Below, one piece after another: positions 21,028 through 55,352 of a stretch of DNA of 64,000 nt (position 1 is the first letter of the stretch; each line of letters starts with the position of its first letter). The stretch is taken from the NCBI RefSeq assembly GCF_900607235.1, contig NZ_LR027850.1, forward strand, positions 450,043 through 514,042, given 5' to 3'. The position numbers and the translations under genes were made by a program. The DNA comes from Olivibacter jilunii (GTDB lineage: Bacteria; Bacteroidota; Bacteroidia; Sphingobacteriales; Sphingobacteriaceae). The notes under the pieces were generated by a model. That model was not told the origin of the DNA. It was given only the letters and a program-made list of their open reading frames with translations, and did no database searches.

Positions 21028-21195
21028 GTAGTTGAGACGTTGAGTAGTTGAGTAGGGAATTAGTTTAGTAGTTAAAGTGATGAATTATAATTGATGAACG
21101 AATGAATGATGAGTGATCAGTTGTGAGTTGCCCGTTGTGAGTTGTGAGAAAGGTTCGAGCGACTGATAACCGAAAGCTGATAGCTGATTTCCGAT
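21028..21195 (+). repeat. stop-codon-linked mosaic repeat, partial copy
   Basis: Directly after the tkt stop come reiterated words such as GTTGAGACGTTGAGTAGTT and GAGTAGGGAA, then GTTGTGAGTTG and CGAAAGCTGATAGCTGATTT. The same words occur behind sprA (32748 on) and other genes. The stretch is dense in stop codons in all frames and has no coding potential. Confidence 0.7.
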
Positions 21196-21260
21196 GGCTT
21201 CTTGCCACCGAAGGCAGCATGCATACCTTTGGAAATAGACACAAATAAATAATTATTATA

Positions 21261-21350
21261 ATGAAACCTGCATGAGCTACCGCTCAAAAAAGAGCGTGAT
21301 TAACGCGGCTCATGCAAGCTGAATTGCCACTAAAAGTCTAATTTAATCAG
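21261..21350 (+). promoter_or_regulatory. transaldolase leader, hairpin unit A
   Basis: The unit begins with the micro-ORF ATG AAA CCT GCA TGA (MKPA). TGCATGAGC pairs with GCTCATGCA, and an inner CGCTC-AAAAAA-GAGCG stem sits inside. The unit ends with GCCACTAAAAGTCTAATTTA and ATCAG, identical to the end of unit B. Confidence 0.5.
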
Positions 21351-21436
21351 ATGAAACCATCATGATTTATTCAAACCACACAGGGGTATGAATGAATCTG
21401 ATAGCTTCATCGCCACTAAAAGTCTAATTTAATCAG
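21351..21436 (+). promoter_or_regulatory. transaldolase leader, hairpin unit B
   Basis: The unit begins with ATG AAA CCA TCA TGA (MKPS). ATCA-t-GATTTATTCA pairs with TGAATGAATC-TGAT (one bulge, one T-G pair), extended by GATGAA with TTCATC, loop of about 15 nt. It ends with the same tail as unit A, so the transaldolase ATG sits in the same context as the unit B ATG. The stems differ in sequence from unit A but remain paired. Confidence 0.5.
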
Positions 21437-22564
21437 ATGAAAAATCCATTAGCAAAGATCCCTGATTTCGGCCAAAGTATATGGTTGGATTATATCAAAA
21501 GATCGTTTATTCAATCCGGTGAATTGAAGAAATTGATAGACGAAGACAATTTAAGAGGAGTTACCTCAAATCCTGCAATTTTCGAAGAAGCGATTGCACG
21601 TAGTGAAGACTATAATGATACCATCAGTGAATTGGGAAAGACGGATATCTCGAATGAGGAAATTTTTCTCAAAATGGCTATTGAGGATGTTCAGCATGCC
21701 GCTGATGTTTTTAAGGGGGTTTACGAACAGACCAAAGGACTGGATGGCTACGTAAGTCTAGAGGTTTCACCCGGTTTGGCATTGGATACCGAAGGCTCTA
21801 TTGCAGAGGCACGATCGTCCTGGAAAGCACTTGACCGTCCGAATGTGATGATTAAAATTCCCGGCACAAAGGAAGGCTTGCCGGCCATTAAACAGTTGAT
21901 AAGCGAAGGCATTAATATCAACGTAACGCTACTTTTTGGTTTAGACCGATATCGCGAAGTAGCGGAAGCTTATATTGCAGGATTAGAAGAACGGGCAGAA
22001 AGAGGAGAACCCCTGGAAAAAGTAACCTCGGTAGCAAGTTTCTTTTTAAGTCGCATCGACACAATGGTAGATACGATGTTAGACGAGGTTGCTGAAAATG
22101 ATCCGAGTAAAGCTACAGCGGCAAAGCAGATTAAAGGACAGGTCGCAATCGCAAGTGCTAAAGTGGCATATAGTATTTATAACGAACTTTTTATGTCTGA
22201 TCGTTTTCTGGAATTGGAAGCCAAGGGTGCTAAACCACAGCGTTTGCTATGGGCCAGCACCAGTGTGAAAAACAAAGCCTATGATGATCTAATGTATGTT
22301 GAAGCACTTATCGGCCCACAAACGGTAGACACCTTGCCAAAAGAAACCTTGAATGCCTATCGCGATCATGGCAACCCCGCAGCACGCTTAAAAGATGACC
22401 TTGAGCACGCACGTTATACGCTGTACAAATTGGAAGATATTGTTGGCATTAAGCTTTCAGACGTTACGCAACACCTGGAAGAAGAAGGGATTCAGAAATT
22501 TATTAAACCTTTTGATAGCTTGATGGACGTGCTAGCACAGAAACGCAAGGAGGTGGTTTCCTAA
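21437..22564 (+). CDS. tal: transaldolase
   Basis: 375 residues, the longer TalB-like class found in actinobacteria and some Bacteroidota. It moves a dihydroxyacetone unit between sugar phosphates through a Schiff base; the lysine is K140 in [12 protein letters not shown]. Other family segments: [15 protein letters not shown] near the start, [12 protein letters not shown], and [16 protein letters not shown]. Its start is embedded in the second copy of a 31-nt direct repeat (21326-21356, 21412-21442). Its stop overlaps the HAD start (TAATG). With tkt it forms the non-oxidative pentose phosphate branch. Confidence 0.96.
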
Positions 22565-23184
22565 TGCCTGAACACAATAGCACCATTAAAGCACTCTTTC
22601 TGGATATAGGAGGAGTGTTTTTAACAAATGGCTGGGATACAGAAGCTCGTAAAGAAGCAGCAATCAAATTCGGACTTGATTTTGAGGAACTGAATGGAAG
22701 ACATCGTATCATCTTTGACGCCTATGAGTCAGGTAAATCTACTTTGGACGAATATTTGACTTTGTTAATATTCTATAAACCACGCAATTTTACACGAGAG
22801 GATATTAAAGCATTTATGATGCAAAAGTCGCAACCTTATCCCGAGATGATCGAATTGATCCGTACCATAAAACGGAAGCATCATCTTCTCACCATCGCCG
22901 TGAATAATGAAGGCAGGGAATTGAACGACTACCGCATTCAGCAATTTGACCTAAAGAGTTTTATTGATGTTTTTGCCTCTTCTTGTTTTGTGCATATGCG
23001 AAAACCCGATATGGATATGTATCAACTTGCAATCGATCTGGCACAGGTAAAGCCTGAAGAAATCGTCTATTTAGACGATCGCCCGGTCTTTATTGAGGCG
23101 GCTTGCCAACTGGGTATACAGGGTGTTGAACATGTCGATGTAGCAACGACGAAATCAGCTTTGGCTCAGTACGGATTAATATAG
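22564..23184 (+). CDS. HAD-superfamily hydrolase
   Basis: 206 residues. Motif I is LFLDIGGVF with nucleophile D14 but Gly in place of the second Asp (DxG), as in YihX-like and some other HAD proteins; motif III/IV are MRKPDMDMY and YLDDRPVFIEAA. Motif II reads AVNNEGREL with Asn where Ser/Thr is usual. The changed D+2 residue makes a classical phosphatase uncertain, though YihX-type enzymes with this form are active. It overlaps the tal stop by 1 nt, so it is cotranslated and may act on a sugar phosphate, which is an inference. Confidence 0.85.
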   Translation: MPEHNSTIKALFLDIGGVFLTNGWDTEARKEAAIKFGLDFEELNGRHRIIFDAYESGKSTLDEYLTLLIFYKPRNFTREDIKAFMMQKSQPYPEMIELIRTIKRKHHLLTIAVNNEGRELNDYRIQQFDLKSFIDVFASSCFVHMRKPDMDMYQLAIDLAQVKPEEIVYLDDRPVFIEAACQLGIQGVEHVDVATTKSALAQYGLI

Positions 23185-23781
23185 TATTGTTAAGTGGTTG
23201 AGTAGGGCGATGGTTAAGTAGTTGTTAACGCACAACGCCCTACTCAATTCTTAATTGTTCGCTGTTGATTGTTAGCTATCAGTAATCAGCTGTCAGAAAT
23301 CGGCTTTCGGCTATTCCGAGTTATAAGTTCTACGTTATAGGTTTTACGTAAGGGCATCTGCTAATGTGGTAACCATTATCACATTGGCTCATTCCCCAGC
23401 TGTCAGTAATCAGCTTTCAGTCGCACCAGCCCTTATCACATCATCACATTGGCCAATTGGCTCATCGGCTAACCGACCGCAGGAAGCTCATGAGTGCCGA
23501 AAAAGCAAGCACTTACGAATAATTGTCACACTGGCTAATTGGCTAATTGTCACATTGGCTAATCAAGCTATAAGCCATAGGCTTTAGGCATTAGCTTTTA
23601 GCTATCAGAAATCAGCTTTCAGCCACTAACCTGTTCATCATCACATTGGCTCATCGGCTAATTATTCACTATCTGTTTTTATTATTAAGGTGTTCATGAG
23701 CTCACTTTGTTCGGTTATCACATTGACCAATTAACGTCTCAACAACTTAACTATTTCCCTACTCAACAACCTACTATTCAA
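23185..23781 (-). repeat. mosaic 3'-end repeat, copy A
   Basis: Fills the whole gap between the HAD stop and the stop of the convergent gene at 23782. It is built from recurring words: CACATTGGCTAATTGG types, AGCTGTCAGTAATCAGC types, TTATAAGTTCTACG types and the core CGAAAAAGCAAGCACTTACG with GAAGCTCATGAGTGCC. It is largely the reverse complement of copy B at 32748-33215 and shares blocks with copy C. Open frames inside (for example 23366-23587) are made of repeat words and are not genes. Confidence 0.85.
23635..23746 (-). repeat. 112-nt inverted repeat arm (partner 32790-32901)
   Basis: This segment is the exact reverse complement of 32790-32901 by direct reading, and matching continues with one mismatch to about 23766. 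The arms flank 9.0 kb carrying two secreted-protein genes and sprA. Confidence 0.9.
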
Positions 23782-24234
23782 CTATTTTTCTTTACTAAGG
23801 TTAATCGTGATCGAGTGTTCGTCCAAACCTTCAATGTGCTCATCGGTAAAAATGTCTTTTGATTTCTCCTGAATGGCAGTGAGTAAATCCTCTGCCGATC
23901 CTTCGTAGTCTACTAAGATCACAGAGCCGGATGGACTGAATTTCATCTTGGTACTTTCGACTCCCTTGCACGTCTCAACCTGCTCGTTTAGCTTTTTAAG
24001 ATTCGTGAGGTTAATACCGGAAATATTAATGGTCGTAAAATCTTCTTCCGCACTTTCCTTTTTCTTAAAAAAGCCTAACACTTTATCACCGGTTCCTTTT
24101 GTTTTATCGGCTGTGTTAGATGCTTTTTCTACTTTGTTTAATGCTTGGTCTACTTTATCAAATAAACTTTGCGCTTTCACGCTGGCCACACACAAAAAAA
24201 TCAGGGGGGCACAGCAAACAATTAACTTTTTCAT
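23782..24234 (-). CDS. exported protein of unknown function
   Basis: 150 residues with a signal peptide (MKKLIVCCAPLIFLCVASVKA, cleavage likely before QSLF). A Lys/Ala/Thr-rich helical linker (about 25-58) leads to a domain at about 65-148 with a beta-alpha-beta-beta-alpha-beta order (TTINISGINL; VILVDYEGSAEDLLTAIQEK; HSITINLS) that resembles a ferredoxin-like or HMA-like fold, but without a CxxC metal site. I do not recognise the family. Its stop abuts repeat copy A. Confidence 0.75.
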   Translation of the reverse strand: MKKLIVCCAPLIFLCVASVKAQSLFDKVDQALNKVEKASNTADKTKGTGDKVLGFFKKKESAEEDFTTINISGINLTNLKKLNEQVETCKGVESTKMKFSPSGSVILVDYEGSAEDLLTAIQEKSKDIFTDEHIEGLDEHSITINLSKEK

Positions 24235-24614
24235 AATCCAACTTGTTATTTAATACGTTTCAGTTTGTTCAGGTAAAGGGCTAATAAAATACTTTATGGA
24301 CTCTTTCTGTAATACACATTAGCTTAACAAAATTGCTTGATTCCGTATGGTTCTACAATCCTCATAAATGAGTTATTTTTTCTACAGGTTTTCCGGTAGT
24401 TTTAGATCGTTTATTGCTCAAGAAAATGAACAAGATGAATAAGCGACTTTAGATCATGATTTTTCGACTTTCACTGCCGTTCCTTGTCAAAATATGCGTG
24501 ATTCTCAGCTAAGTGATGAAAATCGTCATGATGAAACTTGAGGTTCTGAATTATAGGAAATAAACCGAATTAGATATTTTAGCCTTCTTTTAACTTAATT
24601 CGTTTAATAATTTT
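24235..24614. other. divergent intergenic region
   Basis: 380 nt, A+T-rich, between two genes for secreted proteins that point away from each other. I see no TAnnTTTG box, gene or strong hairpin. Confidence 0.4.
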
Positions 24615-25388: not shown

Positions 25389-25521
25389 TAGCCTTCGTAA
25401 TACACCCGGAAATGTAAAAGAAGAGTTAACGGCTTTGCTCTTTGAATTAAAAAGAAAGCCTGTCTTCTTATACACGGAAAAAAATAATTATCTACGAATT
25501 AGTGTTTCTCGGTTAAAATCT

Positions 25522-25569: not shown

Positions 25570-25661
25570 CTGAATTGGTGGTGTTTTTTTAAGCCATAGT
25601 AATGGCCTAAACTCAAGTTATCAATTATATTATAAAGCAAGTACATTCATTTACCTGTGCT

Positions 25662-31600: not shown

Positions 31601-32747
31601 TGGATGGTTGAGTACCGATAGCCTGCAAACGCAACTTTATGCGAAGTCTTTACGCGAGGATTTGAGTATCCGCGCTACACTGGAGCCCTTTAAGGATCTA
31701 CGGATCGACTTAACAGCTACGCGGATTGAAAATAGAAATTTTACCACGCAAGTGCTCTTTAACGAAGATACGCAAGGATTTGAGCGGGTAACACCGGTTA
31801 CAGCAGGGGATTACAGTATATCGTATCTCTCTTTGAAAACGGCCTTTTCGAACAAAGATGAGCTTTTCAAAACTTTTGAAAGAAACAGAGGGACAATCTC
31901 ACGAAGATTGGGACAATTAAATCCCAATTCGGAAGGAACGATCGGCGATTTTGCTGATGGATATGGAAATACGGCACAAGACGTAGTAGTTGGCGCTTTT
32001 CTGGCGGCTTATACAGGCAAAAGCCCGGAGAAGCAGAGCTTAGGTGTGTTCCCGCGTATACCGATACCTAACTGGCGTATTATGTATAATGGATTGGCGA
32101 AATATCCTTTCTTTAGCGAATATTTATCCTCGTTGGAACTGGTACATGGTTATCGAACACTCTATAATATTAATGGTTACACCACACTTATTCGATATGG
32201 TGAAACGAATGGCGCGTCTTCGGTGAGAGATGTCAATGGAAACTTTTTGCCACAATATCAATTCTCACAAATTACTTTACAAGAGCAATTTTTACCCTTG
32301 ATTGGCTTCAACGCTCGTTTCAAGAATAACCTAACAGCCAATGCGGAATATAGGAAGGCTCGGACTTTAAGTCTTAGCCTGCAGAACAGTCAATTGGCAC
32401 AGCTACTGGACGAAGGCTTCATTTTGGGGGCAGGCTATCGTGTTGCTAATTTTAGATTTCCCTTTGGTTGGTTTGCAGATAGAAAAGTTTCAAACGATTT
32501 GACCTTTAAACTGGATGTGGCTATCAATGATATGAAAACCTTGGTATACCGGTCCGATTCCGAGTTTTCTGAAATGGCCTCAGGAAATAAAAATATTACT
32601 TACCGACCGTCTATCGATTATATGTTCAATAATCGTTTTAATATCCGAATGTTCTTCGATAGCAATGCAGTGAAGCCTTATACTTCGCAAACCTATGCAA
32701 CGGCCTATAGCAACTTCGGATTCAATTTGAGGATATTATTGCAGTAA
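25662..32747 (+). CDS. sprA: SprA, type IX secretion outer-membrane translocon
   Basis: 2361 residues from a GTG start that gives a signal peptide (VRNTFSSILFFLFFFSVPGA, then IDVLARQ). SprA/Sov forms the giant outer-membrane barrel through which type IX cargo leaves the periplasm and is needed for gliding in flavobacteria. Family features: early segments GGNTINIIPRGSVDATIMGQ and DQRIQMNLTGQIGDRMRI, ASYIDDFENSRSIIDLKGAYSW in the middle, and an aromatic beta-strand end (NFGFNLRILLQ). Length fits the family (2300-2500). The downstream order gcvH-vanZ is conserved in Bacteroidota. Repeat copy B begins directly after its stop. Confidence 0.96.
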   Translation: MRNTFSSILFFLFFFSVPGAIDVLARQKPALSTNRDSTKNVSDSTGVLYPIKDEPFLNLYQRDNGIHLRKPGTIKREIDFDPIGRQYIIRDNIGSSMYRPPQYLSIDEYQQYENQSLKERTWRELSDDFSRRARKDGWIPSIQVNSPTFEKIFGGNTINIIPRGSVDATIMGQYNKNDNPMFNERQRKQFGFDFDQRIQMNLTGQIGDRMRIITNYNTEAQFDFENQIKFDYVGKDDAIIRRIEVGNVSMPLNSTLISGTQALFGVKTQLQFGKLGVTSVFSQQRSQSKEITITNGAQQNEFSLKADEYEQNKHYFLAQYFRDNYNRAMSNAPLLLTNVNITQIEVWVTNRSNSIENSRDVLAFMDLGESRPWNPMFNQPGGSQLPAAGVVGDPAFPEQSNRLLQILQQQYPDARYSSSNAVAALFQSSGANDNYARLSNARKLTEKEYTVNRRLGYISLNTPLNADQVLAVAYRYTANGREYQVGEFSTDIPISPSNPQVLFTKLLKNEVLKPNLPVWDLMMKNIYSIGAYRVGRNNFILNVFRLEDETGVERPVMFEGKNTTNKLWLQLTGLDRLNPQNDRQPDGVFDFLEGLTIDPEYGRVVFPVVEPFGKDLKSLFAPGEEQLAERYAFQELYDSTKVVAQQLFANKNRYAIRGTYESEAGSEFQLGAINIPRGSVQVYAGGIPLQEGADFTVDYEIGRVRILNEALLRSGQAIRIKMENNELFGLQQRTLFGSRLDYMVNDQLQLGGTIMNLSERPLTQKVNLAQEPISNTIWGFDVNYNAPSRWLTRMVDKIPFINTREESTISFYGEFANLIPGHSKATNIAGSRNGASYIDDFENSRSIIDLKGAYSWQISGTPQLFPESQLSNDLRYGYNRARLAFYNIDPVFYRNDNSLTPANIRGNLTELSNHYVREVLEQEVFPNKQTVTGQPLFMSTLDLSFYPTIRGPYNYTLSGVNSDGTLTNPKSRWGGMFRQIQTPDFEAQNIEFIELWMMDPFIYKPQDEGGDLYFNLGNISEDILKDGRRAVENALPTNGNYAEMDLTNWGRVPKLQPMVQAFANNPDQRALQDVGLDALNDADERNHFSNFLSQASATLNPQPLQELNNDPSSDNFSYFRSAELDAQNAGILKRYERFNGTEGNSKTAEQAGAGDGVNTSASTLLPDGEDVNRDNTMNQIDEYYQYRVSVRPQDMMVGKNFIVDMIDAPVTLANGKKENVKWYQLRIPITQYESKAGDPQDFKSIRFIRMFMTNFADTSILRMARLQLVRGEWRRFNSERSPTKVIADPTLNNPGLDNSTIEVAAVSIEENGNRQPIPYVVPPGIERQIDYGNYNTNVQLNEQALSVTVNRLRDGYGQAAYRTSTNDFRAYKRLQMFVHAEGDELRSGDLHGFIRVGTDGIENYYEYEMPLEVTTPGSRDPDAIWPSSNRMNVEIKLFQEAKEARNKATLPDGSPWPINLPYSFVDGTNTVTIKGQPDISKIRFYMLGVKNPLKGQNNANDDGMEKSGVIWFNELRLTDYEDNGGWAATARLNAKLADFADVTVSGSKSTIGFGAIDARINERNRTEDRFFDFTSSVELGKFFPERTGIRIPFYFNYSSQVRTPQYNPLMPDIEMKSALDGLNDNQKDSLLRLTQDYTTRKSISFMNVRKLRMDNEKPVRLWDIENFSVSYAFSQFYHRDYLTEKSVQNNYRASLSYDYVQNKDKYIEPLKKLFKGRYTRLLSDLNFNLMPSFINFRIDVQRLYTENTLRTGSSPDNYLPAGNIGTLYNKNFTMTRLYGISWNLTRSLKLDFNATNYSIIDEPQGRLDGLKRDTLWENFWKLGRTTDYNHMMNLTYNVPLDKIPGLDWINVAARYGSQFAWQTQPLLAINDPNLNIGNTIQNSRTLQLNPRFNLLGLFNKFPFFRDARNGRSPNKGTEILANFVSSIKDINAAYTRVDGTFLPGYLGKTNMLGLDFDMNAPGFGFIFGGQGDILGKAIANGWLSTDSLQTQLYAKSLREDLSIRATLEPFKDLRIDLTATRIENRNFTTQVLFNEDTQGFERVTPVTAGDYSISYLSLKTAFSNKDELFKTFERNRGTISRRLGQLNPNSEGTIGDFADGYGNTAQDVVVGAFLAAYTGKSPEKQSLGVFPRIPIPNWRIMYNGLAKYPFFSEYLSSLELVHGYRTLYNINGYTTLIRYGETNGASSVRDVNGNFLPQYQFSQITLQEQFLPLIGFNARFKNNLTANAEYRKARTLSLSLQNSQLAQLLDEGFILGAGYRVANFRFPFGWFADRKVSNDLTFKLDVAINDMKTLVYRSDSEFSEMASGNKNITYRPSIDYMFNNRFNIRMFFDSNAVKPYTSQTYATAYSNFGFNLRILLQ

Positions 32748-33215
32748 GGAGTAGTTAATAGGGAAATAGTTGAGTAGGGAAATAGTTGAGTTGTTGAGAC
32801 GTTAATTGGTCAATGTGATAACCGAACAAAGTGAGCTCATGAACACCTTAATAATAAAAACAGATAGTGAATAATTAGCCGATGAGCCAATGTGATGATG
32901 AGAGGCTAGCGCAACTGAAAGCTGAAAGCTGATTACTGAAAGCTCGTTGATTATTCGTAAGTGTTTGCTTTTTCGGCACTCATGAGCTTCCTACGGTCGG
33001 TTAGCCGATGTGATAATGAGCCAATTGGCCAATGTGATGATGTGATAAGGGCTGTGCGACTGAAAGCTGATTACTGACAACTGGTGAATGAGCCAATGTG
33101 ATAATGGTTACCACATTAGCAGAAGCCCCTACTTAAAACCTATAACTTAGAACTTATAACCAAATAGCCGAAAGCTGATAGCTAAAAACTAATAGCTAAA
33201 AATCACTATTCCCTA
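32748..33215 (+). repeat. mosaic 3'-end repeat, copy B
   Basis: Begins immediately after the sprA stop with GGAGTAGTTAATAGGGAAAT, then the 112-nt arm, AAGCTGAAAGCTGATTACTG, the core ATTCGTAAGTGTTTGC with CGGCACTCATGAGC, the hairpin-like block CCAATGTGATAATGGTTACC and ACTTAAAACCTATAACTTAG words. It reads in the opposite direction to copies A and C. No gene is present. Confidence 0.85.
32790..32901 (+). repeat. 112-nt inverted repeat arm (partner 23635-23746)
   Basis: Exact reverse complement of 23635-23746. It covers the end of the GTTGTTGAGACGTTAA word, AACCGAACAAAGTGAGC and the AATTAGCCGATGAGCC block. Confidence 0.9.
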
Positions 33216-37292: not shown

Positions 37293-37904
37293 ATGATTGA
37301 AAAAACAAGGTTAGCATTAGAAAAATATGTTCCGAAGCAGGCTGCCCCAATAATTGCCCGTTGGATTCATCAAGCACCCTGCCTTTTTAAGATCAGCAAA
37401 AGCCGGACATCTAAGTTTGGTGATTACAGATCGCCGTACAAAGACAAAGGACATCGTATCTCGGTCAACCATAACCTGAACCCCTATGCTTTTTTGGTAA
37501 CAACAGTGCATGAATTCGCGCATCTGAAAACTTGGAATGAACACAGAACAAAGGCAAAACCTCATGGTATAGAATGGAAACAGAATTTTAAATTATTAAT
37601 GAAACCTTTTTTTGAAATGGAGGTGTTCCCGGATGATGTGAGACAAGCGGTATTAAGTTACTTGGCAAATCCGGCTGCTTCCAGTTGCTCGGATCTAACG
37701 TTATATCGTATATTGAAACAATATGATCATCCTAAAAATGGGCATGTTAGGGTGGAAGAACTAGCATTGGGTAGTGCTTTTGCACTTCCCAATGGACGAA
37801 TCTTTAAAAAAGGGGAAAAAAATCGAACCCGTTTTCGATGCGAAGAATTAGCGACCGGCAAAATTTATTTATTTAGTCCCGTAGCTGAAGTGTTCAAGCT
37901 GTAA
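37293..37904 (+). CDS. SprT-like zinc metalloprotease-domain protein
   Basis: 203 residues. The zinc motif HEFAH (H73, E74, H77) lies in TTVHEFAHLKTWNEH and a third ligand is probably the His in KPHGIEWK, as in SprT/Spartan-like domains. The C-terminal part (about 140-203) has the small beta fold VRVEELALGSAFALPNGRIF often seen in Bacteroidota SprT proteins, without the zinc-ribbon cysteines. The last codons TTC AAG CTG TAA run straight into repeat words of copy C. A role in DNA-protein adduct repair is known for Spartan, not for this branch. Confidence 0.88.
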   Translation: MIEKTRLALEKYVPKQAAPIIARWIHQAPCLFKISKSRTSKFGDYRSPYKDKGHRISVNHNLNPYAFLVTTVHEFAHLKTWNEHRTKAKPHGIEWKQNFKLLMKPFFEMEVFPDDVRQAVLSYLANPAASSCSDLTLYRILKQYDHPKNGHVRVEELALGSAFALPNGRIFKKGEKNRTRFRCEELATGKIYLFSPVAEVFKL

Positions 37905-38371
37905 GCTTTAGCTTAGTTAATAAGTGAACTTGTTACCCCAGCCAGTTATAAGTTTTAAGTTATAGGTTTTAAGTAAGAGCTTCTGCTACTATAAGGCCGT
38001 AAGCTATAGGCTCTAAGCTGTAGGCGTACCGAATTACCCTAGCCGGTTATAAGTTCTAAGTTATAGGTTTTAAGTAGGGGCTTCTGCTAATGTGGTAACC
38101 ATTATCACATTGGCTCATTCGCCAGCTGTCAGTAATCAGCTTTCAGTCGCACCAGCCCTTATCACATCGTCACATTGGCTAACCGGCCGTAGGAAGCTCA
38201 TGAGTGCCTAAAAAGCAAGCACTTACGAATAGTTGTCACATCTGCTAACCGACCGTAGGGAGCTCATGAGTGCCGAAAAAGCAAACACTTACGAATAATT
38301 GGCTAATTGTCACATTGGCTATTCACGATTTTCCTACTTAACAACTTAACTACTCCCTATTTAACTGCTCC
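37905..38371 (-). repeat. mosaic 3'-end repeat, copy C
   Basis: Fills the gap between the convergent stops of the SprT-like gene and yceH. It contains tandem TTATAAGTTTTAAGTTATAG words, the block CTAATGTGGTAACCATTATC, AGTAATCAGCTTTCAG, two cores with GAGCTCATGAGTGCC or a close variant, and ends as an inverted-repeat arm that enters yceH. Its orientation is that of copy A. Confidence 0.85.
38178..38309 (-). repeat. tandem duplication of the 66-nt repeat core
   Basis: Two copies (38178-38243 and 38244-38309) of the core from GCTAACCGxCCGTAGG through GCACTTACGAAT, differing at a few positions. Copies A, B and E carry one core each. Confidence 0.8.
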
Positions 38372-38388
38372 CTAATAAAGCTCCTTCA
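38318..38388 (-). repeat. inverted repeat arm entering yceH (partner 42915-42999)
   Basis: 71 nt whose reverse complement is found at 42915-42999, identical except for a 14-nt insertion in the partner. The arm includes the yceH stop and the last five codons (KELY stop plus part of the codon before). Confidence 0.92.
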
Positions 38389-41194: not shown

Positions 41195-42931
41195 ATGGCA
41201 AAAAAAGTGGCAGATCAGCTAGTTGAAACCCTTTGGGACGCAGGAGTTAAACGTATTTATGCAGTTACGGGCGACAGCCTAAATGAGGTAAATGATGCCG
41301 TACGAAGAAATGGCAAGATGCAATGGGTACATGTTCGCCACGAAGAAGCAGGAGCATATGCCGCAGCTGCGGAAGCTGAGTTGAATGGTGTCGCTTGTTG
41401 CGCGGGCAGCAGCGGTCCTGGACATGTACATCTCATCAATGGCCTATATGATGCCAATCGATCCGGGGCTCCTGTATTAGCGATTGCGTCAACTATGCAT
41501 ACCGACGAAATGGGTTCTGATTACTTTCAGGAAACAAATACAATTAAGCTATTCGACGATTGCAGTGTTTACAATCAGATAGCTACGACGCCGAAACAAT
41601 TTCCGAGAATGCTTCAGGCAGCCTTACAACATGCCTATAGTAAAAAAGGTGTGGCGGTTATTGGTATGCCTGGTGATGTAGCCATGGAAGATGCTGCTGA
41701 TATATTGACGGAAACTAGCTTGTTAAAACAAAGGCCCGTAGTACGTCCAAATGACGAAGAATTACAAAGTCTCGCGCAATTGTTGAATCAACATCAACGG
41801 ATTACCCTTTTTTGTGGTATTGGTTGTAAAGAAGCCCATGACGAGGTAGTGGCTTTAGCAAAGAAATTAAACGCACCAGTTGGTTATTCGTTTCGAGGTA
41901 AGATGTATGTGCAATACGACAATCCGAATGAAGTCGGAATGACTGGACTTTTGGGGTTGCCGTCCGCCTACCATGCCATGCACGAATCAGATCTGCTTGT
42001 ATTATTGGGAACTGATTTTCCGTATAAAGACTTTATGCCGGAAAGCTGCGGTATTATTCAAATTGATGAAAAGCCGGAACGGCTGGGACGTAGGGCTAAG
42101 CTCAAAATGGGACTAATGGGCGATATTAAACATACCTTGCAAGCACTGTTGCCACTGTTGGACCAAAATCAAGATGATAGTTTTTTACGAGCGCAATTGA
42201 AGCTTTATGAAAAAGTAAAAGAGACGCAGCAGACTTATGTGAACGACAGAGGGAAAAAGGATAATATATCACCCGAATATTTAGCTCATACGATTGATAA
42301 GTTAGCCACAGATGATGCAATATTCACGGTTGACACCGGCATGAGCTGTGTTTGGGGAGCACGATTTATACAAGCTACCGCTAACCGGGAATTACTTGGT
42401 TCATTTAATCACGGTTCGATGGCCAATGCTATGCCGCAGGCTATTGGTGCCGCCTTTGCCCGGCCTAATCAACAGGTGGTCGCATTTTGTGGTGACGGCG
42501 GACTATCAATGTTATTAGGTGATTTAGCTACGATTGTTCAGTATAATCTTCCAATAAAAGTAATTGTGTTCGACAATCGTTCACTGGGTATGGTAAAGTT
42601 GGAAATGGAAGTGGCTGGCTTGCCCGATTGGCAAACAGATATGTACAATCCGGATTTTGCAACGGTTGCCATGGCGATGGGTATGAAGGGAATATGCATC
42701 GATGAACCGGATAAGGTAGAGCAGGGCATTAAGGAGGCGTTGGCTTATCAAGGACCCGTATTGGTGCACGCAAAAACGAATCCGAACTCGTTGGCAATGC
42801 CGCCGAAGATAGAATTCTCTCAGATGAAGGGTTATGCCATTACAATGGGAAAAATGATACTCAATGGACGAATGGATGAAGTGCTTGATACCGTTAAGAG
42901 CAATTATAAGCATTTGAAGGAGCTTTATTAG
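41195..42931 (+). CDS. poxB: pyruvate dehydrogenase (quinone) / pyruvate oxidase-like
   Basis: 578 residues from ATG 41195. ThDP enzyme: VTGDSLNEVNDAV and the catalytic-Glu segment VRHEEAGAYAAAAEAEL at the start, FAD/central domain, and the ThDP motif CGDGGLSMLLGDLATIVQYN...VFDN at the end. Resemblance to E. coli PoxB is strong, which decarboxylates pyruvate to acetate and passes electrons to quinone at the membrane. Last codons LKELY share their DNA with yceH. It is not in an operon with nuo genes; a repeat separates them. Confidence 0.9.
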   Translation: MAKKVADQLVETLWDAGVKRIYAVTGDSLNEVNDAVRRNGKMQWVHVRHEEAGAYAAAAEAELNGVACCAGSSGPGHVHLINGLYDANRSGAPVLAIASTMHTDEMGSDYFQETNTIKLFDDCSVYNQIATTPKQFPRMLQAALQHAYSKKGVAVIGMPGDVAMEDAADILTETSLLKQRPVVRPNDEELQSLAQLLNQHQRITLFCGIGCKEAHDEVVALAKKLNAPVGYSFRGKMYVQYDNPNEVGMTGLLGLPSAYHAMHESDLLVLLGTDFPYKDFMPESCGIIQIDEKPERLGRRAKLKMGLMGDIKHTLQALLPLLDQNQDDSFLRAQLKLYEKVKETQQTYVNDRGKKDNISPEYLAHTIDKLATDDAIFTVDTGMSCVWGARFIQATANRELLGSFNHGSMANAMPQAIGAAFARPNQQVVAFCGDGGLSMLLGDLATIVQYNLPIKVIVFDNRSLGMVKLEMEVAGLPDWQTDMYNPDFATVAMAMGMKGICIDEPDKVEQGIKEALAYQGPVLVHAKTNPNSLAMPPKIEFSQMKGYAITMGKMILNGRMDEVLDTVKSNYKHLKELY

Positions 42932-42999
42932 GGAGCAGTTAATGGGGAATAGTTAAATAGGGAGTAGTTAAGTTGTTAAGTAGGAAAATCGTGAATAGC
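42915..42999 (+). repeat. inverted repeat arm leaving poxB (partner 38318-38388)
   Basis: Starts in the poxB coding end (TGAAGGAGCTTTATTAG is shared with yceH), continues as GGGAGCAGTTAA, has a 14-nt insertion TGGGGAATAGTTAA, and then 43 nt identical to the partner. Confidence 0.92.
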
Positions 43000-43255
43000 T
43001 AGTGTGATAACCGAACGAAGTCAGTTCATTAAAGCCTTGAAAGTAATTAGACAGTGAATAATAAGCCAATGTGATAATAGTTGCAGTAACACAGGCAGTA
43101 GCAGCGGTACGCCTACAGCTTAGAGCTTATAGCTTACGGCCTTATAGTAGCAGAAGCCCTACTTAAAACCTATAACTTAAAACTTATAACCAGCTAGGGT
43201 AATTCGGTACGCCTACAGCTTAGAGCTTAGAGCTTACCGCCTTATACCGGTATCT
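42932..43255 (+). repeat. mosaic 3'-end repeat, copy D
   Basis: Begins right after the poxB stop. It carries GTGATAACCGAACGAAGTC (as copy B), then CAGCTTAGAGCTTATAGCTT, CCTATAACTTAAAACTTATA and GGTAATTCGGTACGCCTAC words that also occur in copy C on the other strand. No core block is present. Confidence 0.85.
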
Positions 43256-43351
43256 GCAACTCATAACCACGCTCAGCTCTACAGAATAAGTAGTTATTAG
43301 AATCATTCAAAATAAGTTTATTTTCCATTTAGTATTTTCATGCTTAATCAT

Positions 43352-43359
43352 TAAGTTTG
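43352..43359 (+). promoter_or_regulatory. -7 box TAAGTTTG before nuoH
   Basis: Fits TAnnTTTG. It implies that the nuoH-N block has its own promoter, with a leader of about 25 nt to the TTG start. Confidence 0.5.
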
Positions 43360-43388
43360 CATTTATTACAATTAGTGCAAATTTTGTC

Positions 43389-44465
43389 TTGAGTTTTTAC
43401 ATCATATATATTCTGGTTGCCATTCTGTTGTTTACTTTCTTAGCTGGGTTTACGCTTTTTGCCGTGTATGCCGAGCGCAAAGTAGCAGGCTTTGTGCAAG
43501 ATCGACTGGGTCCTATGGAAACCGGTAAATTTGGCAGCTTGCAGACGATTGCCGATATTCTTAAACTTTTGCAAAAGGAGTTTATAACACCTGCTAGCGG
43601 CGATAAGGTGTTGTTTGCAGCTGCTCCGGTTATTGTATTCGTTGCGGTATACCTAGGTTTCGCAGCTATGCCTTGGGCGCCAAATGTGGCACCGGCAGCA
43701 CTCAATTTGGGATTGTTTTATGTAATTGCGATCATATCGGTAGAGGCTATTGGGGTACTGATGGCGGGATGGGGTTCTAATAACAAGTTTTCTTTATTGG
43801 GATCGCTCCGCGCAGTTGCACAGATCGTTTCTTATGAAATACCGGCGGGTTTAGCCTTAATTGCTGCAGTAATGATAACGCAGACACTGGATATGCAGGA
43901 GATGACCATTAATCAAGGAATATTAACAAATGAACGTCTACTTTTCCTTGGTTTTTGGGATGTAAGTGAAATAGGTGGTTTTTTTGCGTGGAATATCTTT
44001 CAAGCACCTCATCTAATATTAGCTTACATCATTTATTTTGTCGCTTCGTTGGCTGAGTGTAATCGGGCCCCTTTCGATATTCCGGAAGCGGAATCGGAAC
44101 TGGTATCGGGTTACCATACGGAATATGGAGGCTTACGCTTTGCCTTCTTCTTTCTGGCCGAATATTGTTTGATGTTTTTGGTATCCATGATTGGCGTAGT
44201 GCTTTTTTTGGGCGGATGGAACACACCACTGCCAAATATAGGAGCCTTGAAATTGGCAGCTTGGACAACGGGAATAGTATGGGGGATTGTTTGGGTGTTA
44301 CTGAAAACCTTAACAATTGTTGGCATTCAGATTTTAATTAGATGGACGCTCCCCCGATTACGTGTGGATCAATTGATGAGTTTATCTTGGAAGGTATTAA
44401 CACCGTTGGCCTTTTTATGTATGGCAATATCCGGTATCTGGCGAATTTTGGTTATGGTCGGTTAG
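43389..44465 (+). CDS. nuoH: NADH-quinone oxidoreductase subunit H
   Basis: 358 residues, eight or more membrane helices. The family motif AERKVAGFVQDRLGPMETGKFG follows the first helix, and the quinone-site segments SVEAIGVLMAGWGSNNKFSLLGSLRAVAQIVSYE and ECNRAPFDIPEAESELVSGYHTEY are complete. The start is TTG, the only start codon that fits, 30 nt behind a -7 box. nuoH is the first nuo gene here; nuoA-G are missing upstream, where poxB and repeat copy D lie. Repeat copy E separates it from nuoI. Confidence 0.96.
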   Translation: MSFYIIYILVAILLFTFLAGFTLFAVYAERKVAGFVQDRLGPMETGKFGSLQTIADILKLLQKEFITPASGDKVLFAAAPVIVFVAVYLGFAAMPWAPNVAPAALNLGLFYVIAIISVEAIGVLMAGWGSNNKFSLLGSLRAVAQIVSYEIPAGLALIAAVMITQTLDMQEMTINQGILTNERLLFLGFWDVSEIGGFFAWNIFQAPHLILAYIIYFVASLAECNRAPFDIPEAESELVSGYHTEYGGLRFAFFFLAEYCLMFLVSMIGVVLFLGGWNTPLPNIGALKLAAWTTGIVWGIVWVLLKTLTIVGIQILIRWTLPRLRVDQLMSLSWKVLTPLAFLCMAISGIWRILVMVG

Positions 44466-44820
44466 TAGTTAAGTGGTTGAGTAGAGTTTTATTAGTATTG
44501 AATGATGCCTGCCTGCCGGTGGGCAGGAATTATAAATGATGAACGATGAATATGGTTGAATAGTTGATTAGTCAATTTGAGAATTAGCCGATTATTCGTA
44601 AGTGTTTGCTTTTTTCAGTACTCATGAGCTCCCTACGGTCGGTTAGTCAATGTGATGATGGGGATTGTGTAGCTTAAAGCTTATTGCATATAGCCTACAG
44701 CGTTATAAATTGCCAATTCGTGATAGGGGAAGAGCTTGTGCGACTGAAAGCCAATAGCTGAAAATGAGTGAATGATGAACGAACAGCTTAAAGCTTAGTG
44801 CTTATAGCTTACAGCTAAGA
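44466..44820 (+). repeat. mosaic 3'-end repeat, copy E
   Basis: Starts at the nuoH stop with TAGTTAAGTGGTTGAGTAG (the same word follows the HAD gene at 23192), then a short palindrome, the core ATTATTCGTAAGTGTTTGC with CTCATGAGCTCCCTACGG, and AGCTTAAAGCTTATTGC words up to just before nuoI. It interrupts the nuo operon for 360 nt. Confidence 0.82.
44508..44529. repeat. short GC-rich palindrome
   Basis: CCTGCC pairs with GGCAGG within CTGCCTGCCGGTGGGCAGG. A related sequence, CTTGCCTACCGGCAGG, lies in the feoA leader near 34720. Such CCTGCC/GGCAGG palindromes are common dispersed repeats in Sphingobacteriaceae, from general knowledge. Confidence 0.5.
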
Positions 44821-44826
44821 AGAAAT

Positions 44827-51410: not shown

Positions 51411-51479
51411 AACTAGCGTTTTTGATTAAATAAGTAGTTGGCAAGCATTCCGGTCCCTGCGTATGACTAGTTAATCGAT

Positions 51480-51690
51480 TTTAAACCGCTCTCTTTTTTT
51501 ATTGTTTTCTCCACTTTCTTTTTTGTTCTTTTTTGTTTGCTGTTTTTTACTCGAAAATCAATTCATTCTGTGTTGTTTTTGCTGTGGTTTTGTGTTTTTG
51601 TGTATGTTTTTCTTTTTATTTTGTGTTATTTCTAATTTATTTTGATTTTTTGTATTAAAAAAATACAAATATGTGTTTTGTTTTTGAAAT
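51480..51690 (+). other. T-rich strand-asymmetric stretch before amt
   Basis: Between nuoN and amt the plus strand is overwhelmingly T with G interspersed and few A or C. At its end TTTGTATT (51649-51656) pairs with AATACAAA (51662-51669). It may terminate nuo transcripts, form unusual DNA structure, or be the amt control region. Confidence 0.5.
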
Positions 51691-51696
51691 ATTGTA

Positions 51697-51704
51697 TATA
51701 TTTG
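51697..51704 (+). promoter_or_regulatory. -7 box TATATTTG before amt
   Basis: Fits TAnnTTTG; TTTG at 51677-51680 is a possible -33 element, a little close. It supports ATG 51729 as the start, with a leader of about 18 nt. Confidence 0.6.
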
Positions 51705-51728
51705 GCCCAACTTATGTTAAAATATAAT

Positions 51729-53048
51729 ATGAATTCGAAAAAATCAACTGTTCCTTTTATTTTTCTTTTGCTTGTAGTGCTGTTAGCGCTAATTTTTCCA
51801 TCAGTTCCTCTGTCTGGGGGTGGAGCTACTGCGGAATACGATGGTGCAGATGTGGCATGGATGCTAACGTCTACCGCTTTAGTATTGATCATGACTCCGG
51901 GATTGGCCTTTTTTTATGGGGGGATGGTGAAGAAAAAGAATGTAATTTCGACCATGCTGCAAAGTTTTATCTGTATGTGCATCGTGGCCGTTATTTGGGT
52001 CGTATTCGGTTTTAGTCTGGTATTTGGCGAATCATGGCACGGAATCGTCGGAAATCCCTGCACCTTTTTTATGTTTAAGGGCGTGTTGGACGGACCAAAT
52101 TGGGTGGGAGCTCCTACTATTCCTTTGGCCGTCTTTGCTATGTATCAATTAAAATTCGCAATCATCACACCTGCGCTTATAACAGGAGCTTTCGCTGAAC
52201 GTATTCGGTTTACTTCCTATATTTTATTTGTTTGTTTATTTTTCGTCTTTATATATGCTCCTTTAGCGCATGCCACCTGGCATCCCGAAGGTCTGCTGGC
52301 AAGCATGGGGGTGTTAGACTTTGCAGGGGGGACGGTGGTGCATATGTCGGCCGGTGTAACTGCATTCATGTCTGCCATTTTCTTGAAGAGGGGGAATAGC
52401 AATGGACATGATCCCGCCCGTGTTACTTATGTTTTAATTGGTATGGGGCTATTATGGTTCGGATGGTTTGGTTTTAATGCAGGTTCTGCTTTTGGAGCAA
52501 ATCACCTGGCTGCTTCAGCCCTAGCCACAACCACTACAGCATCGGCTGCTGCGGCACTGGCTTGGATCTTTTTTGACGCGGCACGGGGGAAGAAGCCTTC
52601 CGCTTTGGGCGTTTCAATCGGCGTAGTAGTCGGTTTGGTTGCCATTACCCCAGCGGCGGGCTTTGTTACGGTTCCGCATTCGTTGATTATAGGGGTTGTG
52701 ACGGCAATTATATGTAATTTACTGGTTGAATGGCGTACTACACGTTCGAATGTGGATGATACGTTGGATGTTTTTCCAAGTCATGGTGTTGGCGGAATGG
52801 TTGGTATGTTGCTAACAGGCGTTTTTGCTTCAAAGCACGTTAACCCAATAGTGGCCACCGATGGGTTGTTTTTTGGCGAAACCTCCTTGTTTTGGGCGCA
52901 ACTTATAGGATTGATAGGGTCTGTAGCCTATACATTTATTGTAGCATTTGTTTTATTGCGTGTGACAAACGCGATCAGCAAGTTACGTGTTTCTCCTGAA
53001 GAGGAGGAAATGGGATTAGATATTAGTCAACATGGTGAGAAACTCTAA
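51729..53048 (+). CDS. amt: ammonium transporter
   Basis: 439 residues from ATG 51729 (the frame extends to 51642 but crosses the promoter). Eleven membrane helices are expected. The signature DFAGGTVVHMSAGVTAFMSA, the pore His residues in LAHATWHPEG/GGTVVHM and FPSHGVGGMVGML, and the N-terminal ALVLIMTPGLAFFYGGMVKKKN are present. An N-terminal signal-like helix precedes. It carries ammonium/ammonia inward. No glnK (PII) gene is adjacent, which is unusual since amt and glnK are commonly linked. Confidence 0.96.
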   Translation: MNSKKSTVPFIFLLLVVLLALIFPSVPLSGGGATAEYDGADVAWMLTSTALVLIMTPGLAFFYGGMVKKKNVISTMLQSFICMCIVAVIWVVFGFSLVFGESWHGIVGNPCTFFMFKGVLDGPNWVGAPTIPLAVFAMYQLKFAIITPALITGAFAERIRFTSYILFVCLFFVFIYAPLAHATWHPEGLLASMGVLDFAGGTVVHMSAGVTAFMSAIFLKRGNSNGHDPARVTYVLIGMGLLWFGWFGFNAGSAFGANHLAASALATTTTASAAAALAWIFFDAARGKKPSALGVSIGVVVGLVAITPAAGFVTVPHSLIIGVVTAIICNLLVEWRTTRSNVDDTLDVFPSHGVGGMVGMLLTGVFASKHVNPIVATDGLFFGETSLFWAQLIGLIGSVAYTFIVAFVLLRVTNAISKLRVSPEEEEMGLDISQHGEKL

Positions 53049-53090
53049 TTAACCAAACCAATATCTTCAGACAGCAGTGTTTGAATCAGT

Positions 53091-53123
53091 GAGCCTCTTG
53101 ATGGGAGAGGCTCCAATTTTTTT
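53091..53123 (+). terminator. rho-independent terminator after amt
   Basis: GAGCCTCT (53091-53098) pairs perfectly with AGAGGCTC (53106-53113), then CCAATTTTTTT. Confidence 0.88.
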
Positions 53124-53156
53124 ACATAGGGGTGTTTATTTTTAGGTCGCTTTCTT

Positions 53157-53186
53157 TTTGCAAAGTTGTTTAAATATGTAATTTTG
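53157..53186 (+). promoter_or_regulatory. promoter of the purF-like gene
   Basis: TTTG (53157-53160), 18 nt, TAATTTTG (53179-53186): the best match in the window to the Bacteroidota -33/-7 promoter. The leader would be about 12 nt. Confidence 0.75.
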
Positions 53187-53203
53187 CATGCTCAATTCCA
53201 ACT

Positions 53204-55114
53204 ATGAGTGACTCAATCAAACACGAGTGCGGCATCGCATTAATCCGCTTGCTAAAGCCTCTTTCTTATTATCAGGAGAAGTACGGTACCTCTCTGTACG
53301 GCATCAACAAACTTTATTTATTAATGGAGAAGCAGCATAACCGAGGCCAGGATGGAGCCGGTATTGCCACCATTAAGTTTGATATTAAGCCGGGTAATCG
53401 GTATATCAGCCGATATAGAGCAATGGGACCAAGTGCTGTTTCGGAAATTTTTGAATATGTTCAACGGAAGTTTGCGGCTATTCAACAAGCTGAACCCGAA
53501 CTCTTTCAAGATTCCCATTGGTTAAAGGAGAACATGAGTTTTGTTGGCGAAGTCTTACTTGGACACTTGCGTTATGGAACCCATGGCAAAAATAGCATTG
53601 AAAATTGCCACCCCTTTTTGCGACAAAACAATTGGATGAGTCGTAATTTGGTAATAGCCGGTAATTTCAATATGACCAATGTCGACGAATTATTGGAACA
53701 ATTGTTTGAATTGGGGCAACATCCAAAAGAACAGGCTGATACCGTGACGGTTTTGGAGAAGATAGGCCATTTTTTGGATACCGAGAACCAAGAGCTTTTC
53801 GATAAATTTAAAAAAGAAGGATATTCCAATGTTGAAATAAGTGCACTTATTGCAAAAAATCTTGACGTTGCCAATATTCTTCGGCGTTCTGCAAAAACGT
53901 GGGACGGTGGCTACACCATTAGTGGTATTTTCGGCCATGGAGATGCTTTCGTTATGCGTGATCCGGCAGGGATTAGACCGGCGTACTACTATTATGATGA
54001 TGAAATAGCGGTGGTTACATCAGAACGCCCGGCTATTCAGACCGCTTTCAATATCAAATTTGAAAATATTCGCGAGATTAAACCGGGGCATGCGCTTATT
54101 ATCAAAAAAGACGGAACAATTACCGAAGAAATGTTTCGGGAACCGGAAGAACAAAAGTCCTGTTCTTTTGAGCGTATCTATTTTTCAAGGGGTAGCGATG
54201 CCGAGATTTACCAGGAAAGGAAACAGTTGGGAAGGTTGTTATGTCCCAGTATCTTAGAAGCGATCAATCACGATATAAAAAATACTGTTTTCTCCTTTAT
54301 TCCAAATACTGCTGAAGTAGCTTTTTATGGTGTGACGGATGGAATTAACGAGTATGTTCGTAAATTACAGAAAGATACCTTATTAAAACGGACCGATAAG
54401 ATATCGGACACCGAGTTGGAGGATATGCTTAATATATCGCCTCGTTTTGAGAAACTGAGCATTAAAGATGCGAAGTTGCGAACTTTTATTACGCAGGATG
54501 CGGATAGGCAAGATATGGTGGCTCACGTATACGATACAACCTACGGTGTGGTGAAGAGCGGTGAGGATACCATTGTGGCCATTGATGATTCCATCGTACG
54601 TGGCACGACCTTAAAACAAAGTATCTTGAAAATTTTGGATCGCTTAAATCCGGTCAAGATTATCATTGTTTCATCTGCTCCGCAAATACGCTATCCTGAT
54701 TGTTATGGTATTGATATGTCTAGAATGGGTGAATTTGTTGCTTTTGAGGCTGCCATTTCACTATTGCGAAAAAATGGCATGAATTACATCATTGATGACG
54801 TATATCAAAAGTGTGTGGAGTCATTGGATATGGATAAAACATTGGTCCCAAATCATGTCAAAGCTATTTATGAACCATTTACATATGAGGAAATATCAGC
54901 TGAGATTGCGCGTATCGTGACTCCGATTGATATCAGAGCAAAGGTAGAGGTGATTTACCAAAAGCTGGAAGATTTACATATCGCTTGTCCGAAGAATAAA
55001 GGCGACTGGTACTTTTCAGGGGATTACCCGACGCCTGGTGGGAACAAAGTAGTCAACCGCGCTTTTATGAATTGGGTGGAAGGTAAAAACGTACGTGCCT
55101 ACTACTCGGCTTAG
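53204..55114 (+). CDS. long-form amidophosphoribosyltransferase (PurF-like)
   Basis: 636 residues, against about 470-505 for classical PurF. A class II glutaminase domain begins HECGIALIRL with the nucleophile Cys at residue 9, so eight residues would need removal, as in PurF enzymes with a propeptide. QHNRGQDGAGIATIKF, LLGHLRYGTHG and DGGYTISGIFGHGDAFVMRDPAGIRPAYYY follow. The phosphoribosyltransferase site is TIVAIDDSIVRGTTLKQ. Extra length lies mainly in the middle and C-terminus. It should make phosphoribosylamine for purine synthesis. A short PurF may also exist elsewhere. Confidence 0.88.
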   Translation: MSDSIKHECGIALIRLLKPLSYYQEKYGTSLYGINKLYLLMEKQHNRGQDGAGIATIKFDIKPGNRYISRYRAMGPSAVSEIFEYVQRKFAAIQQAEPELFQDSHWLKENMSFVGEVLLGHLRYGTHGKNSIENCHPFLRQNNWMSRNLVIAGNFNMTNVDELLEQLFELGQHPKEQADTVTVLEKIGHFLDTENQELFDKFKKEGYSNVEISALIAKNLDVANILRRSAKTWDGGYTISGIFGHGDAFVMRDPAGIRPAYYYYDDEIAVVTSERPAIQTAFNIKFENIREIKPGHALIIKKDGTITEEMFREPEEQKSCSFERIYFSRGSDAEIYQERKQLGRLLCPSILEAINHDIKNTVFSFIPNTAEVAFYGVTDGINEYVRKLQKDTLLKRTDKISDTELEDMLNISPRFEKLSIKDAKLRTFITQDADRQDMVAHVYDTTYGVVKSGEDTIVAIDDSIVRGTTLKQSILKILDRLNPVKIIIVSSAPQIRYPDCYGIDMSRMGEFVAFEAAISLLRKNGMNYIIDDVYQKCVESLDMDKTLVPNHVKAIYEPFTYEEISAEIARIVTPIDIRAKVEVIYQKLEDLHIACPKNKGDWYFSGDYPTPGGNKVVNRAFMNWVEGKNVRAYYSA

Positions 55115-55144
55115 TACAGTTAAAAGCTAAATAGCAAAAGATGG

Positions 55145-55178
55145 AAAACAGGTGGGGTTTATCTCAGCCTGTTTTTTT
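55145..55178 (+). terminator. probable terminator after the purF-like gene
   Basis: AAAACAGG (55145-55152) pairs with CCTGTTTT (55168-55175) with a loop of 15 nt and a T-run. Confidence 0.7.
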
Positions 55179-55307
55179 AATAAAAAGTTTTCTTGAGCAT
55201 ATGAATGATGTAAGCTACCTGGATTTTTAGAATAAACGAATAGCTAATCCGTTGCTTATGGGCAGTCGACGAAAATGGTACCGTTAAAATAGGGGAGGTA
55301 AAAACCT

Positions 55308-55352
55308 TCCATACAGCTTCCCTACTAACTAAACTAACTACTTCCTTATTCC
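55308..55352 (-). repeat. short stop-linked repeat word behind the LysE-family gene
   Basis: In the direction of the LysE-family gene, the stop is followed by GGAATAAGGAAGTAGTTAG and TTTAGTTAGTAGGGAAGC, the same type of word that opens copies B, C and D. Only this opening part is present. Confidence 0.55.

Follow-up and report, generated by a model that had tools for sequence, protein, structure and literature searches.

Stop-anchored intergenic arrays of seven- and eight-nucleotide words in Olivibacter and, with other words, in related genera

The 64,000-nt stretch of Olivibacter jilunii DNA analysed here (the window; contig NZ_LR027850.1, positions 450,043 to 514,042) contains tkt, a HAD gene converging on the 23782 gene, sprA, a SprT-like gene converging on yceH, poxB, nuoH and nuoI, and a LysE gene, and the spacers at the ends of these genes are filled with short repeated words. 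An initial annotation, made from the sequence alone, had described this family as starting immediately at stop codons and reading away from the gene. The repetition itself is real: the spacers that it named hold the words, the LysE spacer showing, by eye, only a degraded opening word. Within the window the opening word has 6 matches, compared with 0.02 expected, and the core word has 6 matches at up to 3 mismatches, compared with 0 expected, one of which (28437) lies within sprA. The opening word does read away from the stops of tkt, HAD, the 23782 gene, sprA, yceH, poxB and nuoH, but the SprT stop adjoins a heptamer instead. The interpretation given at that time was correct in part; it had missed the 7/8-nt arrays formed by the words, the frequent inclusion of the stop codon in the array, and the same behaviour of other words in other genera.

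The words form tandem arrays of degenerate units, with a period of 7 or 8; they are nearly restricted to intergenic DNA and occur throughout the source genome (Olivibacter, Sphingobacteriaceae; 6.70 Mb in 21 contigs; coded G000). We distinguish two octamers, AGTAGTTR (O8, the opening word) and ATGTGATR or ATTGGCTA (N8), and the heptamers GTTATTR (L7), GCTGATA (C7), AGCTTAT (K7), TGAATGA (G7), AACTTAT (T7) and AAAAGTA (A7). In a 464-kb sample, self-similarity of intergenic DNA peaks, lags 1-3 aside, at lags 7, 14, 21 and 28 and at lags 8, 16, 24 and 32, and coding DNA is devoid of these peaks. Strict arrays in the same sample numbered 16, with period 7 in 12 and period 8 in 4; no strict array of another period among 4 to 12, and none in coding DNA, was found there. 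Strict arrays thus have the constant short period of heptamer and octamer satellites, and looser thresholds admit a few arrays of other periods and a few coding ones. Satellites resembling long simple sequence repeats are further marked by near-identical units in longer runs than chance would give; units here are degenerate, and strict arrays amount to 16 in 464 kb. Arrays are not ubiquitous: of 786 spacers of at least 60 nt, 78 carry one at a loose threshold. Each AGTAGTTR unit contains TAG together with TAA or TGA, so that a stop is quickly met in all three frames, as the initial annotation had stated.

Composite arrays often follow one order when read from O8, namely O, G, H, X, N, C, N and T or K. 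The shuffling of inner words that had been described therefore holds only partly, since many composites share this order and elements A and B (Table 1) are colinear inverted copies, with 94%, 87% and 94% identity over blocks of 150, 89 and 107 nt. The X core has 21 matches in the source genome, about 16 of them near full length, and no match in O. domesticus. Its edges are sharp and it lies mostly within N8 arrays; Olivibacter sp. XZL3 has three weak matches, and another genus of the family has one. Word H is a GC-rich palindrome like CCTGCCTGCCGGTAGGCAGG, dispersed in spacers both alone and within composites (e.g. 44505-44530). Higher-order tandem repeats of about 210, 362, 70 and 531 nt, with units made of the same 7/8-nt words, were observed at L054 12480-13320, L046 7550-8310, L102 11230-11750 and L105 5780-7330, respectively.

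Where these words lie relative to gene ends was analysed in three sets of stretches. Two sets from the source genome (55 stretches, 1.1 Mb, and 40 stretches, 0.8 Mb) were taken on a rough grid, unselected by word matches, though the match lists were partly or wholly known beforehand; the window and the stretches picked near matches (L099 and L102-L105) were kept apart from both. The third set comes from O. domesticus DSM 18733, most of whose stretches (24 of 27) were chosen for their nearby word matches; Olivibacter sp. XZL3, O. sitiensis DSM 17696 and G002 served as the other comparison genomes of the genus. Genes were called mechanically as the longest open reading frames (ORFs) with limited overlap, with a minimum of 360 nt or, alternatively, 240 nt; consequently stops are firm and starts are not. 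An O8 was scored as near when it lay within 35 nt of a stop and as sense when it read away from the gene, and convergent spacers entered the near and far tallies once per stop.

With the three sets pooled, a sense O8 lies within 35 nt of a stop in 38 of the 55 spacers that have both an O8 and a stop, where random placement would give about 13.7. Taken separately, the first, second and O. domesticus sets gave 11 of 19, 6 of 8 and 21 of 28, compared with 4.0, 1.9 and 7.8 for random block placement in the same spacers, and random placement is rejected for each set. Orientation is equally biased: at the 360-nt minimum the near O8 were sense and antisense in ratios of 9:0, 6:0 and 14:1 (29:1 in total), while those far from stops gave 1:12, 1:4 and 3:9. 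Lowering the minimum to 240 nt changed these to 11:3, 6:0 and 15:1 near stops and 1:13, 1:4 and 3:9 far from them. Among tandem spacers alone, 24 have a near-stop sense O8, 5 have sense O8 only farther off and 11 have antisense O8 only. Olivibacter O8 mostly keep at least 20 nt away from starts. Copies across the genome are thus indifferent neither to stop distance nor to orientation, and the link to gene ends that had been drawn from the window alone stands.

A word-free comparison took 1570 gene-end segments, none longer than 45 nt and each read outward, and counted the 14-mers common to different spacers against 12 shuffles. Same-sense sharing amounted to 31 (stop-stop), 25 (start-stop) and 25 (start-start), with shuffle means of 1.3, 6.2 and 4.5, and opposite-sense sharing to 4, 3 and 7, with shuffle means of 0.9, 4.6 and 6.1; the opposite-sense stop-stop count of 4 slightly exceeds the shuffle maximum of 3. 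The excess of word sharing between gene ends is therefore almost confined to the same outward sense, and start-start sharing is probably due in part to promoter motifs. A version with 10-mers was drowned by chance matches and was replaced by 12- to 14-mers with shuffles.

The array is also tied to the stop codon itself. In the unselected G000 sets, the stops beside sense O8 were 11 TAG, 8 TAA and 0 TGA (n = 19), compared with 309, 846 and 184 among 1339 other genes (p 0.0013). By subset the TAG excess gave p 0.0035, 0.15, 0.0025 (picked stretches and window), and 0.155 and 0.009 (two O. domesticus subsets with two genes in common); pooling the O. domesticus subsets after removal of duplicates gave TAG in 13 of 22 (p 0.0074). 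Beside sense L7, the stop was TAG in 8 of 10 cases in unselected G000 (p 0.00025) and in 7 of 7 in O. domesticus. Of 53 near-sense cases, picked stretches included, 23 have an array whose leftward extension takes in the stop, and the stop keeps the register of the unit in 21 of them. Some arrays replace the final codons of the gene and provide its stop.

Table 1. Array elements and related tracts in the window, in window coordinates
Feature	Positions	Strand	Description
Element after tkt	21010..21210	+	O8 array across tkt stop (21025-21027), then heptamer words; tkt-tal gap of XZL3 about 80 nt
Element A, HAD (+) / 23782 gene (-)	23182..23784	.	O8 outward from both stops, X core on minus strand, heptamer words between; colinear inverted copy of B
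Element B after sprA	32745..33215	+	O8, degenerate inverted core, X core, N8, C7 and T7 words
X core	32948..33014	+	Dispersed word of about 58 nt
Element C, SprT-like (+) / yceH (-)	37899..38374	.	Heptamer words at SprT stop, two X cores, O8 outward from yceH stop
28-nt tract over yceH stop	38361..38388	-	Identical to poxB end; probable donor; native KELY end in XZL3 and O. domesticus (by eye)
28-nt tract over poxB stop	42915..42942	+	Last codons, stop and array start; probable copy of yceH end
Element D, poxB / conserved region upstream of nuoH	42929..43260	+	
Element E, nuoH / nuoI	44463..44826	+	O8 at stop, palindrome H, X core, K7 ahead of start
Degraded O8 array	55300..55355	-	Outward from LysE stop; by eye

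Two local observations belong beside these features. The tkt-tal interval of O. domesticus (L127) carries a gene that looks, by eye, like an RpiB-type sugar-phosphate isomerase and that is absent there in the window (21028-21436) and in XZL3, and the tal leader is duplicated in the window (21317-21356 and 21403-21442). Upstream of nuoH, a block at 43270-43380 lies between the array and the gene, is conserved in four Olivibacter genomes and is probably a promoter region.

Words differ from lineage to lineage. The sequence AGTAGTTRAGTAGTTR has 253 matches in the source genome (control 4) and 38 in O. domesticus (control 3), and at most 3 in each of the other 39 of 41 genomes searched; samples of 35-40 kb each from O. 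sitiensis and G002 contained almost no arrays. Period 7 was found in Parapedobacter and Sphingobacterium samples, and both 7 and 8 in Mucilaginibacter. There, GTTCATTRGTTCATTR has 130 matches in Mucilaginibacter sp. X5P1 (control 0) and 160 in a record named M. xinganensis (control 3), with 0 and 1 in two other Mucilaginibacter species and 0 in one Sphingobacterium and one Parapedobacter. We sampled 20 X5P1 stretches picked by word matches; of the 20 spacers with the octamer GTTCATTR, three come from one gene cluster, and two stretches carry the word only inside ORFs. The octamer reads outward at 17 of 17 stops and at 11 of 11 starts, with four further blocks in mid-spacer. The adjoining stop was TAG in 12 of 17 cases compared with 14 of 90 (p 1.1e-5), and the word was in register with 6 of 17 stops and 5 of 11 starts, where starts inside ATG-bearing arrays may be miscalled. 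Distant relatives obey the same gene-end rule with other, lineage-specific words. In X5P1 (G041 C2:731-765 kb, covered in part by L263) facing octamer arms also follow one another at intervals of about 2.5 kb and may lie between the genes of a cluster.

The orthologous spacers of relatives have short gaps or other arrays. The gap between nuoH and nuoI is 361 nt in the window, 46-123 nt in the other Olivibacter genomes, and 4-6 nt in 8 of 9 Sphingobacterium loci (20 nt in the ninth); in two Parapedobacter and 3 of 7 Mucilaginibacter loci it carries quite different arrays. The sprA product ends in NLRILLQ in the window and in O. domesticus and in NLRVLLQ in G002, where the gaps are shorter; the nuoH tail is VMVG in three sister genomes and VMI in O. 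sitiensis, and the tkt and HAD tails are similar among relatives. A model in which each array truncates its gene is ruled out for sprA and nuoH by these conserved tails. The SprT tail is different in all four genomes, and its version in the window resembles a heptamer word. Two other genes have array-coded tails, IYLLSS and EMVESLSS, where relatives differ, and O. domesticus has an array-coded tail of its own in the orthologue of the IYLLSS gene; such tails vary among array-less relatives too.

One gene end appears to have been copied from another. poxB ends in KELY in the window and in KEVIR, KEL or KGMV in relatives, and poxB and yceH share 28 identical nt spanning their stops, with KELY native to yceH in XZL3 and O. 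domesticus. Judging from the sequences, the tract over the stop was probably copied from yceH to poxB, which supports the idea, offered with the initial annotation, of a sequence spreading to gene ends. A search of 1489 stops for copied ends found poxB/yceH as the only long pair. The one other pair, with 13 nt besides the stop, is at chance level (control mean 0.3, maximum 1), and the expectation of many copied ends was dropped.

The data thus hold two unit lengths, an intergenic location, lineage-specific words, outward polarity, a stop that is often inside the array and an excess of the matching codon. We lean, with moderate confidence, towards explaining them by satellites of 7/8-nt units that are made by slippage and that owe their spread from gene end to gene end to the boundary codon within them. 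Replication slippage would make the arrays grow, and recombination or template switching between short homologous stretches might carry copies, boundary codon included, to other gene ends. A stop-bearing word that landed on a 3′ end, or grew across it, would supply the stop at once; since every frame of the word has stops, the protein survives an array at its 3′ end, and the array could afterwards fill the free space toward the next promoter or gene. The Mucilaginibacter word, with ATG on its other strand, would also fit against starts; the Olivibacter octamer is without that. No host function would be required.

Alternatively, arrays may be passive filler that arises anywhere, is purged from coding and promoter DNA and is left between a stop and the next promoter. 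Polarity would then come from survival alone, because only sense arrays are tolerated at a gene end. Such filler would agree with the array lying between a conserved stop and the conserved block upstream of nuoH, with the greater length of array-bearing gaps (median 251.5 versus 166 nt) and with the fact that words other than O8 adjoin stops too. Yet antisense O8 after an intact stop should then be tolerated, whereas 1 was seen for 29 sense (4 for 32 at the 240-nt minimum), inward reading in X5P1 was 0 of 28, and enrichment of the matching stop codon is not predicted. We consider this explanation rather unlikely.

Several facts nevertheless weigh against satellites spreading with a boundary codon. 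O8 also occurs in divergent spacers (7, 2 and 4; 13 of 68 spacers over the three sets), which lack a stop and do not enter the near-stop count, and three O8 blocks overlap or touch called starts. Far sense arrays are scarce, with 5 for 25 antisense, although among the latter are blocks of convergent spacers that count as near and sense for the gene opposite; survival alone fails to explain this scarcity, and elements spanning the spacer with a terminal O8 would explain it. The in-register status of stop-covering arrays is partly due to how these were found. Arrays that start after the stop were in register in 4 of 20 and 3 of 15 cases, which is not significant (p 0.23 and 0.29), and the in-register TAGs of X5P1 all belong to overlapping arrays. 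As a result, register is not a general rule, and overlap of array and stop is the only setting in which codon capture is shown. In 2 of the 5 subsets the TAG excess falls short of significance, and sense L7 in picked G000 stretches adjoined TAG in only 1 of 4 cases. As the stop and tail of sprA and nuoH are kept in sister genomes, no coding sequence was replaced there. Lastly, slippage and copying are steps that we infer and did not see, spread being deduced from one clear copy, yceH/poxB, which is the single copied gene end among 1489 stops.

The arrays might also belong to miniature inverted-repeat transposable elements (MITEs), in which the inverted arms would be terminal repeats, moved in trans by an enzyme targeting gene ends. 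A number of spacers do have inverted arm pairs, composites have a recurrent order with O8 terminal, A and B are near-identical long copies, and the species range is narrow. However, arm length and outer ends vary with no fixed terminus, many spacers are single-armed, several Mucilaginibacter spacers have no remnant of an older leader between array and start, and no target duplication was noticed in an inspection by eye only. A mobile element of this type therefore appears quite unlikely to us.

A role for the RNA was also considered. The initial annotation had suggested a 3′ untranslated region (3′-UTR) element, acting as transcript stabiliser, terminator or translational backstop, and position, polarity and stops in all three frames would suit it. 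Some stretches do fold well, with z -8.7 for the L048 spacer with facing arms, z to -5.2 for tiles of A and the tkt element, and z -3.6 for a single minus-strand tile of B. But in most tiles the folding of elements B-E resembles that of shuffled sequence, no intrinsic terminator (GC-rich hairpin followed by a T run) was found inside C, D or E, the elements scanned, and Rfam gave no match up to E = 1 in 20900-55400. Moreover, orthologous ends in sister species have no arrays or unrelated ones, and element E sits between nuoH and nuoI, within an expected single operon. The suggestion of a terminator or structured RNA found no support, and a functional 3′-UTR element is in our view very unlikely. 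A promoter scan was uninformative (45 matches, 47.4 in shuffles).

Facing arms might instead pair stop to start as an intercistronic hairpin that couples or insulates translation of the neighbouring genes. Facing arms do occur in tandem spacers, with the same layout at nuoH-nuoI in 3 of 7 Mucilaginibacter loci, and in O. domesticus the arms within one spacer match each other better than those of other spacers (p 0.036, 5 spacers). No such excess was found in Mucilaginibacter (p 0.27; 13 spacers, one counted twice) or in G000 (p 0.23; 6 spacers), so that hairpin maintenance is unsupported in two of three sets, and polarity persists in single-arm spacers. We regard this explanation as extremely unlikely. 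The mostly shuffled-like folds, the lack of terminators in C-E and of Rfam matches, and facing arms that in two of three sets match each other no better than the arms of other spacers lead us to favour satellites that need no host function.

Different kinds of dispersed repeats invite comparison. The short tandemly repeated repetitive (STRR) sequences of cyanobacteria are heptamer tandem arrays between genes; going by description only, they differ in words and hosts, and octamers and stop anchoring are features of Olivibacter. Repetitive extragenic palindromic (REP) sequences, bacterial interspersed mosaic elements (BIMEs) and MITEs likewise lie scattered outside genes and close to gene ends, and some of them have inverted arms. 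Here, in contrast, the make-up is of tandem 7/8-nt units, and no fixed palindromic unit or fixed ends were seen; a constant palindromic unit of 20-40 nt, as in REP/BIME, was not found, B-E being mostly unstructured and palindrome H one minor word. Closest are the TAACTGA heptamer direct repeats, described in parts of MacGregor 2015 (PMC4679880) as intergenic, with stops in forward reading, overlapping gene ends by at most 18 nt, patchy in range including some Bacteroidetes, and, where start-adjacent in one Beggiatoaceae genome, mostly in one orientation. Going by those parts of the paper, the arrays described here share the intergenic heptamers, the forward stops, the limited gene-end overlap, the patchy range and the orientation bias beside starts. 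They differ in that Olivibacter has octamers too and many words per genome joined in composites, and in stop anchoring, outward polarity at both gene ends and a word codon tied to the neighbouring stop. Mrazek 2007, as cited in a portion of PMC4679880, described long simple sequence repeats of 5-11 nt, heptamers being commonest, and proposed slippage; as far as that citation goes, the preference for 7-nt units is common to both, whereas units here are degenerate and belong to one genome-wide vocabulary, period 8 is nearly as prominent, and gene-end position and polarity are added. Bacterial satellites derived from heptamers are also described in part of PMC6749651. No report of stop-anchored octamer arrays in Sphingobacteriaceae was found in the leading results from open-licence literature. 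The Olivibacter arrays extend the known heptamer repeats.

It is possible, and we propose it tentatively, that a rule holds across the Sphingobacteriaceae: a 7/8-nt boundary word of each lineage's own, with a stop and in some lineages a start on the other strand, would invade gene ends by pairing and re-supplying the codon, rewriting ends and expanding operon spacers from a few nt to hundreds while proteins stay intact. If this is true, short satellites hug gene ends because the codon that they carry makes landing harmless, and the growth and turnover of conserved operon gaps in the family would follow a checkable rule, the word codon being the boundary codon and polarity being outward. The arrays would moreover provide genes with new C-terminal tails. 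For the heptamer repeats the choice between a regulatory and a selfish nature was left open, and this rule would make the question testable by strain comparison.

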